A DNA stretch of 6,459 nt from Pseudomonadota bacterium (GTDB lineage: Bacteria; Pseudomonadota; Alphaproteobacteria; Acetobacterales; Acetobacteraceae). Shown here piece by piece: positions 3,128 through 6,459 of this stretch (positions within the stretch are counted from its first letter, which is position 1; the number at the start of each line of letters is the position of its first letter). The DNA is taken from NCBI GenBank assembly GCA_021829055.1, contig JAJZCS010000119.1:1-6459 (forward strand), in the 5' to 3' direction. The notes beneath the pieces are model-generated. The model saw only the letters and a program-made list of their open reading frames with translations, was not told where the DNA came from and searched no databases. Made by a program: the position numbers and the translations under genes.

Positions 3128-3706
3128 CTACTGGCGTGCCTCCAAGGCCCGGTAGAGCGTGGCCCGATGGACCCCCAGCAAGCGGGCCACTTCAGCCACG
3201 GGCTTGCCCTCCGTCTCGATGAGCTGGCGGGCATGAGCGATTTGCTCGGTTCCGAGAGTAGGGCTCGGCCCAAAGCGCACACCACGCGCCTTGGCCGCGA
3301 TCCGGCCGGCGCCGGTGCGCTCTACGATCAGGGACCGCTCGAAGTCGGCCATGCCAGCGAACACGGTCAACACCATGCGCCCGGCCGCCGTGGTGGTGTC
3401 TGCCCACGGCTCGGCGAGCGAACGCAGACCCGCGCCGGCCTCCTTGATGCGCTCGGCGATCTCCAAAAGGTCGCGGGTGGAGCGGGCAAGCCGGTCCAGG
3501 CGCGTGACCGTCACCACGTCGCCGACGCGCAGGTGATCGAGCAGCCGACCCAGCTCCGGCCGGTCACGCTTGGCCCCGCTGACCTTTTCCTCGAAAATTC
3601 GGGTGCAGCCGGCCTCGCGTAGCGTGGTGCGCTGCTGGGCGAGGGCTTGGCCTTGAGTGGAGACGCGGGCATAGCCGATCAAGGGACCGGAAGCTGATTT
3701 GGGCAT
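3128..3706 (-). CDS. Serine recombinase, Tn3-type resolvase (TnpR-like), intact
   Basis: A 192-aa small serine resolvase/invertase. The catalytic domain begins IGYARVSTQGQ, with nucleophile Ser16 and Arg14. The remaining active-site arginines are visible as DRPEL (Arg49) and RLDRLARST (Arg72, Arg75), by comparison with gamma-delta resolvase. The E-helix region follows (MVLTVFAGMADFERSLIVERT, about 111-131). The C-terminal helix-turn-helix is GKPVAEVARLLGVHRATLYR (about 167-186). Length matches the roughly 185-200 aa of Tn3-family resolvases. AGGA lies six bases before the ATG at 3706. The enzyme would cut and rejoin DNA at a res site, and the region directly upstream (3716-3830) has the expected inverted arms, so it probably also represses its own promoter by binding there. 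No transposase gene accompanies it in the window. It is similar to, but clearly diverged from, the second resolvase at 6063. Confidence 0.93.
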   Translation of the reverse strand: MPKSASGPLIGYARVSTQGQALAQQRTTLREAGCTRIFEEKVSGAKRDRPELGRLLDHLRVGDVVTVTRLDRLARSTRDLLEIAERIKEAGAGLRSLAEPWADTTTAAGRMVLTVFAGMADFERSLIVERTGAGRIAAKARGVRFGPSPTLGTEQIAHARQLIETEGKPVAEVARLLGVHRATLYRALEARQ

Positions 3707-3715
3707 GAGCTTTCC

Positions 3716-3830
3716 TGTCGTAAGTTATGTCGCGCAATAGATACAACACGCGACCAAGAAACGCGACAAGAAAAAGCTATGCGGACCGGGAGACGGCCTA
3801 AGTGTCGCAAAACTTACAACTTATGCGACA
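3716..3830. other. res-like recombination region of the left resolvase
   Basis: About 115 bp directly upstream of the resolvase start carry repeated GTCGC/GCGAC arms. They are TGTCGTAAGTTA (3716-3727), TGTCGCG (3728-3734) facing CGCGACC (3749-3755), CGCGACA (3762-3768), and TGTCGCA (3803-3809) facing TGCGACA (3824-3830). The 3728-3755 and 3803-3830 pairs both span 28 bp. Tn3-family res regions are about 120 bp with three subsites, subsite I (crossover) farthest from the resolvase gene; here that would be 3803-3830. Assignment of the two inner subsites is uncertain. The region also has to contain the resolvase promoter. Confidence 0.65.
3803..3830. repeat. 28-bp inverted-arm site, probable res subsite I (left)
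   Basis: The arms TGTCGCA and TGCGACA are perfect reverse complements with a 14-bp spacer. The half-sites stay similar beyond the arms: on one strand TGTCGCAAAACTTA, on the other TGTCGCATAAGTTG. The central dinucleotide is AC. The site overlaps the last two complete codons and stop of the marR-like gene. The same arms and spacing recur at 5961-5988. Confidence 0.65.
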
Positions 3831-4294
3831 TCGGCAGTCGCAACACGAACAAGCCATTTTCTAATCGCCAGTTCTTCATCCGGGGCCAGATCGGCAATCA
3901 ACTCATGCTCTATTGCGTGTACCCGGGTACGGCAGGTTGCCAGCAAAGCCTTGCCACTTTCGCTAAGATCAAGATGCTGAATCCGTCCATGAATCGCATG
4001 TGGGCGACGCACTATTGAGTCGGCACGCTCCAAATTGGAGACGATCACGCTGAGCGTCTGCGGGGTGAGCAAAGCCAAGCGCGCAAGATCGGCGTTGGAG
4101 TGGCCCGGATAAGCGGCGAGCATGGTCAACACCGAAAACTGAGGTGGTGTAACGTCTAGGTCCGCCAATGCCAGCTCTACCCGGTGCCGGTACGCGCCAG
4201 CGGCTTGCCGTAACAGGTATCCGATATAGCCCTTTTCCCCCCGCTTCCCCTCACCGGGCTTGGGCAATTGAACTTTTGACGGTGGCATACTCAT
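3821..4294 (-). CDS. MarR-family winged-helix transcriptional regulator
   Basis: A 157-aa protein with MarR layout: an N-terminal dimerisation helix (GYLLRQAAGAYRHRVELAL, about 25-43), then DVTPPQFSVLTMLAAYPG and the DNA-binding region NADLARLALLTPQTLSVIVS (about 67-86). The wing follows (IVRRPHAIHGRIQHLDLSES, about 94-113), and a C-terminal dimerisation helix. MarR proteins bind inverted repeats as dimers and release DNA on binding phenolics or on cysteine oxidation; the only cysteine here is Cys121. It is divergent from the ahpD-like gene with a 66-bp shared region holding an operator-like inverted repeat, so it probably represses itself and the redox genes. ATG at 4294 has no strong ribosome binding site; ATG at 4288 is an alternative. 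Its final residues, DVA plus stop, are encoded inside the 28-bp recombination site, suggesting that the natural C-terminus may have been replaced. Confidence 0.9.
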   Translation of the reverse strand: MSMPPSKVQLPKPGEGKRGEKGYIGYLLRQAAGAYRHRVELALADLDVTPPQFSVLTMLAAYPGHSNADLARLALLTPQTLSVIVSNLERADSIVRRPHAIHGRIQHLDLSESGKALLATCRTRVHAIEHELIADLAPDEELAIRKWLVRVATADVA

Positions 4295-4360
4295 ATTGTA
4301 AGAACTCTTATATCTTGTTAGAGTTTTGATATTAGGCGAAATCGCCTGAAAGGACCAGAC
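4295..4360. promoter_or_regulatory. Divergent promoter/operator region between marR-like and ahpD-like genes
   Basis: A perfect 6-bp inverted repeat, AACTCT (4303-4308) and AGAGTT (4320-4325), spans 23 bp, a suitable size for a MarR dimer. A plus-strand promoter candidate, TTGTAA (4296-4301), 17 bp, TAGAGT (4319-4324), would overlap it almost exactly; on the minus strand TATAAG (4312-4307) could be the -10 of the regulator gene. A second palindrome, AGGCGA-AA-TCGCCT, lies at 4334-4347 and could form a short hairpin in the ahpD leader. AAAGGA (4349-4354) is the ribosome binding site, six bases before ATG 4361. Promoter calls are by eye. Confidence 0.55.
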
Positions 4361-4840
4361 ATGTCAACCGGGATCCCCCGCGTGGATTATCAGACGTTCC
4401 GAAACCTTGCTCCGGCGGCATATGCCGCGCTCGCGGTTCTGGGAAAGGCGGTCGATGATTCTGGCCTCGACAAGCATTTAACGGAACTCGTCAAAGTCCG
4501 GGCCTCGCAAATCAATGGTTGTGCTTTCTGCATCCAGCATCACCTCAATATTGCCCGAAAGGTCGGTGTAACCAGCACGAAACTTGATTTGGTCGCCGCC
4601 TGGCGGGATGCTGGGGTCTTTTCTGAGCGGGAATCTGCCGCTCTTGCCTGGGCCGAGTCTCTGACTGCGGTGACCATCCAAGGCGCATCTGACGAAGTCT
4701 ATGGAGCTCTACGTGAGCATTTTACGGAGACGGAAGCGGTCTTTCTGACCGTTGCAATCGGCACTATCAATAATTGGAATCGTCTTGGCGTAGCACTGCG
4801 ATTCTCGCCACCGCTCCCTCACGCATCAGCAAGCACATGA
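4361..4840 (+). CDS. AhpD-like / carboxymuconolactone decarboxylase family protein
   Basis: The 159-aa protein carries the complete AhpD signature E-x11-C-x2-C-x3-H: Glu42, Cys54, Cys57 and His61, in the stretch ELVKVRASQINGCAFCIQHH. These are the residues that form the proton-relay and redox-active CxxC in alkylhydroperoxidase-type members of the CMD superfamily. The length, the helix-rich C-terminal part (ESAALAWAESLT, then EAVFLTVAIGTINNWNRLGV) and the N-terminal PRVDYQTF fit the small single-domain subfamily. It likely acts as a cytoplasmic thiol peroxidase or reductase on organic peroxides or related electrophiles, but the exact substrate cannot be read from sequence. It is first in a plus-strand run with the GNAT and azoreductase genes and faces the MarR regulator, which probably controls it. 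Its stop TGA overlaps an ATG in the frame of the next gene (ATGA, 4837-4840). Confidence 0.92.
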   Translation: MSTGIPRVDYQTFRNLAPAAYAALAVLGKAVDDSGLDKHLTELVKVRASQINGCAFCIQHHLNIARKVGVTSTKLDLVAAWRDAGVFSERESAALAWAESLTAVTIQGASDEVYGALREHFTETEAVFLTVAIGTINNWNRLGVALRFSPPLPHASAST

Positions 4841-4869
4841 GCACGGCGAAATCACCGCGAGAGGGAAGC

Positions 4870-5313
4870 ATGGCGTCACCCATCCTGCCAGAGGTAAGAT
4901 ATGTGGATAAGGAATCTGAGGTTGTGGCCTGCTATGGATTGATGCGGCAACTCCGGCCGCACCTCGCCTCTGAGCACGAGTTTCTGGCGCGATGGCAGAG
5001 GCAGGTCACCGCAGGCTACCGCTTACTTGCTCTCTGGCAAGGAGCAAAACCCGTCGCCCTAGCCGGTTTCCGCGTTCAGGAGAACCTAGTGCATGGCGTG
5101 CATTTCTATGTCGATGATCTTGTGACCGATGAAGACTCCCGTAGCAGCGGTCACGGCCGAGTCCTGATGGGACGGTTAAAAGCGGAGGGACGGGCGCTCG
5201 GCTGCACAAAGCTTGTGTTGGACACGCCTCTGACCAATACGCTCGGTCATCGTTTCTACTATCGTCAAGGTCTCCTTGCGACGGCGCTGCGTTTCAACGT
5301 GCTTCTCCCCTGA
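4870..5313 (+). CDS. GNAT family N-acetyltransferase
   Basis: The predicted protein is 147 aa from ATG 4870, the usual size of a single-domain GNAT. Core strands read RLLALWQGAKPVALAGFRV (51-69) and GVHFYVDDLVTDEDSRSSGH (76-95). The acetyl-CoA pyrophosphate-binding motif A follows the R/Q-x-x-G-x-G pattern as RSSGHG (91-96), then helix VLMGRLKAEGRALGC. Motif B includes NTLGHRFYYRQGL (123-135). It would transfer acetyl from acetyl-CoA to an unknown amine. Two starts compete: ATG 4837 overlaps the ahpD stop and would couple translation but has no Shine-Dalgarno; ATG 4870 follows GAGG by five bases and gives a family-like N-terminus, so I prefer it. The open frame extends back to 4774 inside ahpD, which is unlikely to be used. 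Cotranscription with ahpD is likely. Confidence 0.85.
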   Translation: MASPILPEVRYVDKESEVVACYGLMRQLRPHLASEHEFLARWQRQVTAGYRLLALWQGAKPVALAGFRVQENLVHGVHFYVDDLVTDEDSRSSGHGRVLMGRLKAEGRALGCTKLVLDTPLTNTLGHRFYYRQGLLATALRFNVLLP

Positions 5314-5328
5314 TACGAGAGCAACAAC

Positions 5329-5429
5329 GTGCCCGTGCACTTCATGTCAGTGCAAGCCCGAGCGGCCCCGCCTCGCAGAGCCGAAAGGCCGGCCATGCGC
5401 TCATTGCGAAATTTAGGGAAATTTCGGAC
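5329..5429 (+). pseudogene. Out-of-frame/unstarted 5' segment of the azoreductase gene
   Basis: In the frame of the downstream gene, bases 5340-5429 encode LHVSASPSGPASQS followed by RKAGHALIAKF, the first beta-strand and the FMN-phosphate loop of FMN azoreductases, which is missing if translation starts at ATG 5430. No ATG or GTG opens this frame. A GTG at 5329, in another frame, reads GTG CCC GTG and would give a typical MPVLHVSASP start if two bases were removed (or one added) near 5338-5339. A short indel in the first codons is the simplest explanation; a sequencing error or a rare start codon are alternatives. Confidence 0.55.
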
Positions 5430-5975
5430 ATGCTAATAACCGAGCGTGACCTTTCGCAGTGGCCGCCACCATATCCCGATCAAACATTCGTCGAGGCAAG
5501 CCTTATGGCAGAGAAGGAACGCGGCGCTCGGGAATTAGCCGCACTCACCTACTCTGAAACATTGATCGCCGAACTGGAAGCCGCCGATCTCATCGTGATC
5601 GACACGCCAATGCACAATTTCATTGTGCCGTCTGTGCTTAAAACCTGGGTTGATTATGTAGCGAGACCGGGACGCACATTCCGCAGCACCCCGGAGGGCA
5701 AGGTGGGCCTCCTAAGTGACCGGCCTGTCTTCACCATAATCGCCTGTGGCGGTTCCTTCTCCGCCCCCTCGGCCGAACAGACGGACTTCCTCACGCCCTA
5801 TCTTCATTATGTACTTGCGACGATGGGCCTCCACGATGTTTCCTCTCTGCGGCTAGAGAATCTACGTCGAGGAGCCGTTGCCATAGAACGGGCTGAGGCA
5901 CAGCTCGCGGCCTGGATCGTAGATCAAGCAGCGAGCTGGAAAAAACGGCAACGCAGCGATTGTCGCATCGCTTAG
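5430..5975 (+). CDS. FMN-dependent NADH-azoreductase-type oxidoreductase (flavodoxin-2 fold), N-terminus probably lost from the ATG-started frame
   Basis: The 181-aa reading frame from ATG 5430 matches the body of AzoR-type quinone/azo reductases. SETLIAELEAADLIVIDTPM precedes HNFIVPSVLKTWVDYVARPG (the FMN-binding PMxNF motif, residues 60-64), then RTFRSTPEGKVGLL, the glycine pair in IIACGGSF (107-108), and TDFLTPYLHYVLATMGLHDV near residues 118-137. Such enzymes use NAD(P)H to reduce quinones or azo compounds with FMN in the cytoplasm. Family members are about 200 aa and begin with a short strand and an S-A-S phosphate loop. That segment is found in the same frame upstream (5340-5429) but has no usual start, so the protein made from 5430 would probably bind FMN poorly. 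The last codons (CRIA and stop) lie inside the 28-bp site 5961-5988. It is the third gene of the presumed MarR-controlled run. Confidence 0.8.
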   Translation: MLITERDLSQWPPPYPDQTFVEASLMAEKERGARELAALTYSETLIAELEAADLIVIDTPMHNFIVPSVLKTWVDYVARPGRTFRSTPEGKVGLLSDRPVFTIIACGGSFSAPSAEQTDFLTPYLHYVLATMGLHDVSSLRLENLRRGAVAIERAEAQLAAWIVDQAASWKKRQRSDCRIA

Positions 5976-5988
5976 GAATTATGCGACA
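5961..5988. repeat. 28-bp inverted-arm site, probable res crossover site (right)
   Basis: The arms TGTCGCA (5961-5967) and TGCGACA (5982-5988) enclose 14 bp, exactly the architecture of 3803-3830. Similarity extends one base further on the cargo side (TGTCGCAT on both when oriented alike). The central dinucleotide is AG, which differs from the left site (AC as written, GT in the mirrored orientation). The stop codon of the azoreductase gene (5973-5975) sits in the centre. No further GTCGC arms are visible between here and the second resolvase start, so any accessory subsites are unclear. Confidence 0.6.
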
Positions 5989-6022
5989 AGTCACATCATA
6001 GAAAGACTTTCGGAAAACCGGC

Positions 6023-6051
6023 TTGCCCGTGGCGAATCAATGGCTTACACT
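6023..6051 (+). promoter_or_regulatory. Candidate promoter of the right resolvase
   Basis: TTGCCC (6023-6028) and TACACT (6046-6051) are 17 bp apart, each 4 of 6 to consensus. Transcription would begin only a few bases before ATG 6063, giving a nearly leaderless mRNA, in keeping with the absence of a good ribosome binding site there. Weak evidence. Confidence 0.3.
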
Positions 6052-6062
6052 TTCCGCAAGAT

Positions 6063-6459
6063 ATGACCGAAACAGACCGCTCTTCCCGCCTGATCGGCTA
6101 TGCCCGAGTCAGCACCTACGGCCAGACGCTCGATGCCCAGCTTGAGCAGTTGAAAGCGGCCGGCTGCGCGAAAATTTTCCGCGAGAAAGCGACCGGAGCG
6201 CGGGCCGATCGCCGCGAGCTGTTAAGGATGCTCCGGTACGTCGCGGCCGGCGACGTGGTGACGGTGACGCGGATCGATCGCCTGGCGCGCTCGACGTTCG
6301 ACCTGTTCGCGATCGTCTAGCAGATCGCCGATGCCGGCGCGCTGTTCCGGTCACTGGCGGAACCGTGGGCCGATACCGGTACGAGCACTGGCCGGTTGAT
6401 GCTGGCCGTATTGGGTGGCCTGGCGGATGTGGAGCGCGACCTGATCCGCACCCGGACGG
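6063..6459 (+). pseudogene. Second serine resolvase (TnpR-like), interrupted by an in-frame TAG and cut by the window end
   Basis: The catalytic domain begins IGYARVSTYGQTLDAQ with Arg15 and Ser17. Further active-site arginines are in ADRREL (Arg50) and TRIDRLARST (Arg73, Arg76). After codon 85 a TAG (6318-6320) interrupts the frame. The same frame then continues without shift as QIADAGALFRSLAEPWADTG and LMLAVLGGLADVERDLIRTR to the end of the window, which aligns with the left resolvase (KEAGAGLRSLAEPWADTT, FAGMADFERSLIVERT). The TAG aligns with Glu85 of that protein, so one base change from GAG, AAG or CAG explains it. The product from this start would be 85 aa, without the dimer helix or the DNA-binding domain, so recombinase activity should be lost unless the stop is suppressed. 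The C-terminal domain lies beyond the window. Confidence 0.85.

Follow-up and report, generated by a model that had tools for sequence, protein, structure and literature searches.

A candidate gene cassette between resolvase-type sites with unlike centres in an Acetobacteraceae contig

A 6459-bp contig from a bacterium of the family Acetobacteraceae carries four genes enclosed by two 28-bp res-like sites, each of which lies beside a serine resolvase gene that points outwards. How did this cargo come to lie between two resolvase-type sites, and do such blocks move? We analysed the complete contig (G000:C269; hereafter the window), whose genome is 2.1 Mb in size and 78.5% complete. Below, L-numbers denote the DNA stretches compared and G-numbers the genomes in the analysis, the genome of the window being G000. 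Our comparisons suggest that window positions 3817-5974 probably form a gene cassette, likely brought in by serine-resolvase crossovers that pair sites with the same central dinucleotide, AC with AC and AG with AG.

Two border sites with unlike centres

An earlier note on this DNA had described a redox cargo between two matching sites in mirror arrangement. Its four-gene cargo and two outward-pointing serine resolvases were borne out by Pfam and NCBIfam profile matches, and both 28-bp sites were found at the cargo borders, with identical arms of 7 + 7 bases and 14-bp spacers. The mirror arrangement holds for the resolvase genes but not for the sites, which share one orientation (core written TTAS). 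Likewise, the two sites match in their arms but not in their central dinucleotides, which are AC at the left border and AG at the right. The features concerned are as follows.

3131-3706, minus strand: R1, gene for a small serine resolvase of 192 aa with an open frame, directed away from the cargo (Pfam Resolvase, 1.4e-42)
3728-3755, plus strand: accessory site resembling box II, in the R1 res, with AT at its centre (arm pattern, 3 mismatches)
3803-3830, plus strand: left border site, central dinucleotide AC (3816-3817), TGTCGCAAAACTTACAACTTATGCGACA
3817-5974, no strand: putative cassette body, centre to centre
3821-4294, minus strand: MarR-family regulator (Pfam MarR_2, 2e-9; OhrR/HpaR-type NCBIfam matches below cut-off)
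4361-4840, plus strand: carboxymuconolactone decarboxylase or AhpD-like protein (Pfam CMD, 8.7e-22)
4837-5313, plus strand: GNAT acetyltransferase (Pfam Acetyltransf_1, 1.1e-10)
5430-5975, plus strand: flavodoxin-like NAD(P)H oxidoreductase, similar to flavin mononucleotide (FMN) azoreductases (Pfam Flavodoxin_2, 1.7e-31)
5961-5988, plus strand: right border site, central dinucleotide AG (5974-5975), TGTCGCATCGCTTAGGAATTATGCGACA, in the same orientation as the left site
about 5989-6062: apparent R2-type res remnant, upstream of R2 and beside the AG site
6063-6459, plus strand: R2, second serine resolvase gene, with TAG at 6318-6320, running off the contig end

The protein encoded at 4361-4840 also scored 55.9 bits against the AhpD core model TIGR00778 (cut-off 27.8). 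The right site covers the final codons of the flavodoxin-like oxidoreductase gene.

We checked how specific the site pattern is. With up to 3 mismatches allowed, the arm pattern occurred three times in the window against 0.41 expected, and only 2 of 200 shuffles reached three; the third match is 3728-3755, which was placed as box II of the left res. Genome-wide, exact arms alone are weak evidence, being found in 13 of 397 family genomes and in 9 of 397 with the reversed control. Arms plus core (TTAS, up to 3 mismatches) matched in 7 of 13 genus genomes, where the control gave 0, and among 20 genomes picked for holding a site the control matched once each in two. A site profile built from 35 distinct sites found no match when run on one mononucleotide shuffle of 685 kb. 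The combined pattern recovered 33 stretches from 84,980 species genomes, including Acidiphilium, Acidocella, Burkholderia, Paraburkholderia, Thiodictyon, Sphingomonas and others. A link to viruses was considered and rejected, as the site pattern had 0 matches in the viral contig collection.

Sites scoring at least 24 against the profile and lying 200-8000 bp apart formed 20 neighbouring pairs. Fourteen of these ran AC then AG in the same orientation, as do the window sites at 3803 and 5961, while two were AC then AC, one was AG then AC and three were in opposite orientation. AC came first in 14 of the 15 same-orientation AC/AG pairs. Two near-palindromic sites (L064:5076 and L066:2141) were oriented by hand from flank homology, and without both of these pairs the count is 12 of 18; L012 and L013 in this count are copies of one cassette. 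L016 (AC site scoring 19.3), the outer L069 pair (with an opposite site in between) and the interrupted L099 were left out. The AC-then-AG pairs bound different genes and were found in Acidiphilium, Acidocella and other bacteria.

In several cassettes the inner ends are conserved, resembling GTGACCGGGTAGGGGGG at the left border and GGGTCGTTTTTRCC at the right (aligned, by eye). In eight genomes there were five perfect matches to these motifs (3 + 2), all at AC/AG sites, and the idea that the motifs are general intergenic repeats was rejected for this reason. Looser matches prove nothing, since the mismatch-tolerant totals (30 and 17) resemble those of the reversed controls (33 and 18).

The conserved inner-end motifs speak against a plain mosaic, in which two res-bearing plasmid segments were joined around the cargo by rare res recombination with no dedicated system. 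Resolvases and res sites are indeed common on these plasmids, the cargo of L008 and L025 is flanked by resolvases at both ends, and most complete plasmids carry a single AC site. A mosaic of this kind also sits poorly with the recurrence of the AC-then-AG order on large contigs, several pairs lying on contigs 0.1-3.7 Mb long whose examined stretch gave no R1 or R2 match, and with the presence of the window cargo between the same ends in another genus. We consider it quite improbable.

Homology that stops at or near the site centres

The window block was found again in G062, which belongs to the same family but another genus. The two copies are 85% identical, with window 3821-5976 corresponding to L106 6226-8383. 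The L106 copy sits between virD4/copG-like and trbB-like open reading frames (ORFs), named from their sequences and from annotated plasmid matches. Homology between the window and L106 begins and ends within about 5 bp of both site centres, and the flanks are unrelated. Just inside the left and right sites, 32 of 36 and 28 of 36 positions agree, whereas just outside the figures are 19 and 18 of 36, the level of unrelated flanks. G137 has the same locus as L106, cargo included, and the two are 98% identical over 11.8 kb.

A second copy of the conjugation locus in G062 (L120) carries a different cargo, a 700-aa gene without a Pfam match. Its left flank is 95% identical to that of L106 over 2.7 kb, up to L106 6224, with 37-40 agreeing positions in each 50-bp bin between 200 and 50 bp short of the centre. 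The two stretches rejoin from L106 8548, with gaps further on. Different cargo beside a conserved flank, for which the earlier note had suggested a search, is thus present, as L120 and L106 share their left flank and differ in cargo. An empty site, which the note had also suggested looking for, did not appear: as far as they were read, none of the six matches to one platform class in 387 genomes was empty. In the relatives L122 and L124 the homologous flanks are separated by 69 bp and the platform is absent.

In G232, which belongs to the same genus as the window genome, one cassette is present at two chromosomal places with different flanks. It measures 4.2 kb in L013, and the L012 copy holds an extra insert. 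These copies part close to the AC centre on one side and immediately beyond the AG site on the other. Elsewhere in G232, L013 and L087 share 3.83 kb to the right of an AG site at 97%, with different sequence to the left. The sequence duplicated in G232 includes an ABC-F-like ATPase gene and a large serine recombinase-like ORF.

A cassette with a GNAT gene is common to L071, a contig of a metagenome-assembled genome, and to Acidithiobacillus and Acidiphilium plasmids (L008, L025). L071 and L008 are identical at 805 of 850 positions (95% over 850 bp), with the res divergent left of the AC centre and the sequence near-identical right of the site. The AG end of this cassette is missing in the plasmids. 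The window cargo had only four weak partial matches on plasmids, and the L013 and L069 cassettes likewise had partial matches only. Gain of a cassette at res sites, as the earlier note had proposed, is supported by the same cargo in unrelated flanks, by different cargo after one left flank and by breaks at or near the centres, but the idea that the two borders are equivalent partners is not supported, one being AC and the other AG.

We also looked at cargo content, using 16 cassettes (window, L010, L012/L013, L015, L016, L018, L064-L069, L071-L073 and L099). Six of the 16 encode a protein matching a PADLOC model of anti-phage defence below 1e-20, with not every ORF in each cassette scanned. 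The models matched were AbiU (L065), AbiLi (L015), NsnA (L016), PDC-S28 (L069), AriAB (L010) and PDC-S15, an FRG protein (L012/L013). At this threshold there was no match among the scanned proteins of the other ten cassettes, the window's four included. Control proteins from the flanks gave 2 matches in 10 (an ABC-F ATPase and a TnsB-like transposase). Given this control and the incomplete ORF scan, the defence content is an observation and not a tested enrichment.

Resolvases, res sites and possible routes of exchange

By sequence, the nearest solved relatives of R1 are DNA invertases (4m6f, 3uj3) and the gamma-delta and Tn3 resolvases. On sequence grounds, the left border site is taken to be box I of the R1 res, with both box I and box II recognisable. 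The two boxes are 75 bp apart, centre to centre, about seven helical turns (7.1 at 10.5 bp), and further TGTCG/GCGACA words occur at 3716 and 3763. Accessory spacing in Tn3-type res is given as 4-7 helical turns in the available part of PMC12217951, which puts the left res at the upper end.

Relatives of R1 with 83-85% DNA identity were found on seven Acidiphilium and Acidithiobacillus plasmids. Those examined are preceded by a matching pair of sites, a proximal site and then an AC site 74-75 bp further out. Homology between plasmids spans the R1 gene and its res and ends at the AC site, beyond which the genes mostly differ. Across 13 R1-type res regions (one of 14 was dropped because the contig end was too near), mean pairwise identity in ungapped comparison rose from 0.37-0.51 on the left of box I to 0.65-0.90 within the box and fell to 0.24-0.28 immediately beyond it. 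The L008 site agrees with its relatives in its left half only. Res accessory-like DNA was present on the left in 25 of 36 AC-type rows, in several sequence classes (counted by eye). R1 matches at E <=1e-70 were found in 8 of 387 family genomes, and five of the eight carry AC-AG cassettes (G000, G153, G232, G382 and G224). The window genome has a second R1 gene (L011:715-1462; G000:C174), 89% identical and with an AC site of its own.

The right border differs from the left in having no working resolvase beside it, as R2 is broken by its in-frame TAG and the contig ends within the gene. No further arm match (up to 3 mismatches) that could mark accessory boxes was found near 5961-5988. R2 was considered as the owner of the right site and rejected as the leading explanation; its relatives in L027-L030 carry a CATAATTCAAGACTTTTGG-like sequence at this place. 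L017 and L027-L029 share an AAGA(C/T)TTTYGG-like sequence upstream of the R2-type gene, and L030 has a weaker form. AG-type sites occupy the box I position of R1-like resolvases in other bacteria (L022, L038, L054, L055 and L057). Since L027-L030 differ there and AG sites adjoin R1-type resolvases elsewhere, R2 is probably not the owner of the AG site.

The remainder of the window includes an ORF at 1-2013 that runs in from the contig start and encodes an Eco57I-type methylase domain. It is followed by three small minus-strand ORFs (one DUF2513-like below cut-off, one with no match and one with DUF2188).

Resolvases cut at the central 2 bp of box I (PMC12217951, available part), and substrates with unlike 2-bp overlaps yield no more than traces of recombinants (PMC11607074, as far as its accessible text goes). 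The two borders should thus not react with each other, as their AC and AG centres differ. With mutually inert borders, the cassette would neither excise itself nor invert. We infer that the enzyme is an R1-type or similar resolvase, which would act in cis on plasmids and in trans on orphan sites. Two replicons would fuse at their AC sites to form a cointegrate, and resolution at the AG sites would then swap the DNA in between, a natural form of recombinase-mediated cassette exchange resting on the AC-with-AC rule. Cargo would ride along, here a MarR-type regulator and redox-type genes and elsewhere sometimes a phage-defence-like gene. An exchange through cointegrate formation and resolution has been proposed for single dif modules, according to the accessible portion of PMC13141974.

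A number of observations weigh against such an exchange. At the AG end, the right half of the L106 site is not site-like, no AG end is recognisable in L120, and the AG sites of cassettes are without evident accessory sites, which Tn3-type resolvases need. Identity stays above background 20-35 bp outside the site for L012/L013 (26 of 36) and L013/L087 (25 of 36). The AC-then-AG order has its exceptions in L070 (AG then AC), the two AC-AC pairs and the three opposite pairs, and the window cassette itself has no recognisable conserved inner ends (by eye). Among 14 complete plasmid records, W06 alone carries both AC and AG, and six others have AC with no recognised AG. Close R1 (E <=1e-70) was found in only 5 of 14 known cassette-bearing genomes; at E <=1e-40 there was no match in cassette-bearing G140, G304, G062, G137 and G397, only relatives at 46-50% in G187, G398 and G400, and in G399 a 91-residue piece at 90% together with relatives at 49-52%. 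Cassettes in such genomes would need another resolvase, one brought by a plasmid, or past activity. Finally, the two types of left half each occur with AC as well as with AG, a pattern for which like-with-like exchange by itself does not account.

The half-site pattern would be explained by an integron-like insertion, in which an AC-centred circle enters an empty AG-centred res and leaves AC on the left and AG on the right. The fixed AC-then-AG polarity would follow at once. The inner halves (right half of the AC site and left half of the AG site) are almost perfect inverted repeats, which a circle would bring together as a single 28-bp palindrome, and the outer halves look like intact R1 res sites with an AG centre (L038, L054, L055). 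Such an insertion would, however, need recombination across a mismatched AC/AG overlap, for which known resolvases give only traces in the accessible text of PMC11607074. Neither a circle nor an empty version of a chromosomal platform that is occupied elsewhere was seen, and the platform is wholly absent from L122 and L124. We regard this route as unlikely.

The other route to be weighed is transposition, in which a res-targeting element of Tn3, Tn5053/Tn402 or IS type would carry the block as its cargo. Beside the AG sites of L020, L021, L093, L079 and L080, and in degenerate form in L095, lies what we take to be a Tn402-type end motif (by eye). These Tn402-like ends lie to the left, at distances from the AG sites that range from a few bp to some tens, as res-site hunters would be expected to leave them. 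In L015, TniA/TniB-like genes lie between box II and box I, and the available part of PMC7765201 describes res-site hunters that do target res regions. In the window, however, there is no transposase among the ten ORFs scanned, no transposon end was recognised at the borders, and homology ends at the site centres; neither tnpA nor the terminal inverted repeats of a Tn3 transposon were found. The ordinary Tn3 transposon that the earlier note had named as the contrary case was not met with either, as none of eight annotated plasmid stretches lists a Tn3-family transposase. That the block is transposon cargo is thus very improbable, and exchange between like-centred sites is the explanation we favour.

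Two further elements were seen at these sites. L015:2868-5890 holds a second recombinase, a TniA/TnsB-like transposase and an AAA ATPase, and is probably a res-hunter transposon splitting an R1 res. L099 (G304) contains a repeat of about 180 bp with inverted ends ACAGRCCGTGTGAAA, in four copies of which one is incomplete (by eye).

L099 14426-14604: repeat copy
L099 15091-15276: repeat copy
L099 16080-16174: repeat copy
L099 17560-17745: repeat copy

Each copy starts at the centre of an AC/AG-type site, and the complete three show the central dinucleotide on both sides. The repeat seems to be a small element that targets AC/AG sites.

Relation to known cassette systems

Integrons resemble the AC/AG cassettes in having a platform with a site, conserved cassette ends and a fixed orientation. 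Integrons, however, use tyrosine-recombinase sites, whereas the AC/AG cassettes have serine-recombinase sites, and no long arrays of the latter were seen, only the disrupted site group in L099. In laboratory recombinase-mediated cassette exchange, a cassette between incompatible sites is swapped by a double crossover. The AC/AG cassettes would be a natural counterpart built from resolvase sites.

The dif (pdif) modules of Acinetobacter are alike in having no transposase of their own, short bounding sites and a proposed exchange of single modules through a cointegrate at one like-spacer pair and resolution at the other. They differ in using the tyrosine recombinases XerC/XerD, a 6-bp spacer and alternating inverted sites (PMC13141974, accessible portion). 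The window sites do not fit this pattern, being resolvase-type with other arms and another core, in the same orientation and with borders that differ in central dinucleotide. A likeness in site structure is found in Tn3-family res and SGI1, which have a 28-bp box I, there cut at its central 2 bp, and accessory boxes toward the resolvase gene; the centre of the SGI1 box I is AC too (PMC12217951, available part). The job of Tn3-family res is to resolve cointegrates or multimers. In the AC/AG cassettes, by contrast, box I borders exchangeable cargo, there is a second site with another centre, and many sites are orphans.

Tyrosine-recombinase cassette systems are already known, as is transposon insertion into res sites (PMC7765201, available part). 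No cassette system based on resolvase sites was found in the open-access literature searched, subscription journals being mostly outside this coverage. Small serine resolvases are usually viewed as clean-up tools for transposition and plasmid multimers. The broader proposal, that resolvases swap cassettes, some of them anti-phage, among plasmids, conjugative elements and chromosomes through incompatible AC/AG docking ends, is one we put forward tentatively and with some doubt. The AC/AG sites provide a simple handle with which to search for further cases. If the proposal is true, integrons and dif modules would be joined by a third cassette system based on a recombinase, able to reach chromosomes while carrying neither a transposase nor its own enzyme, and the gain and loss of defence genes at fixed places would be easier to explain.

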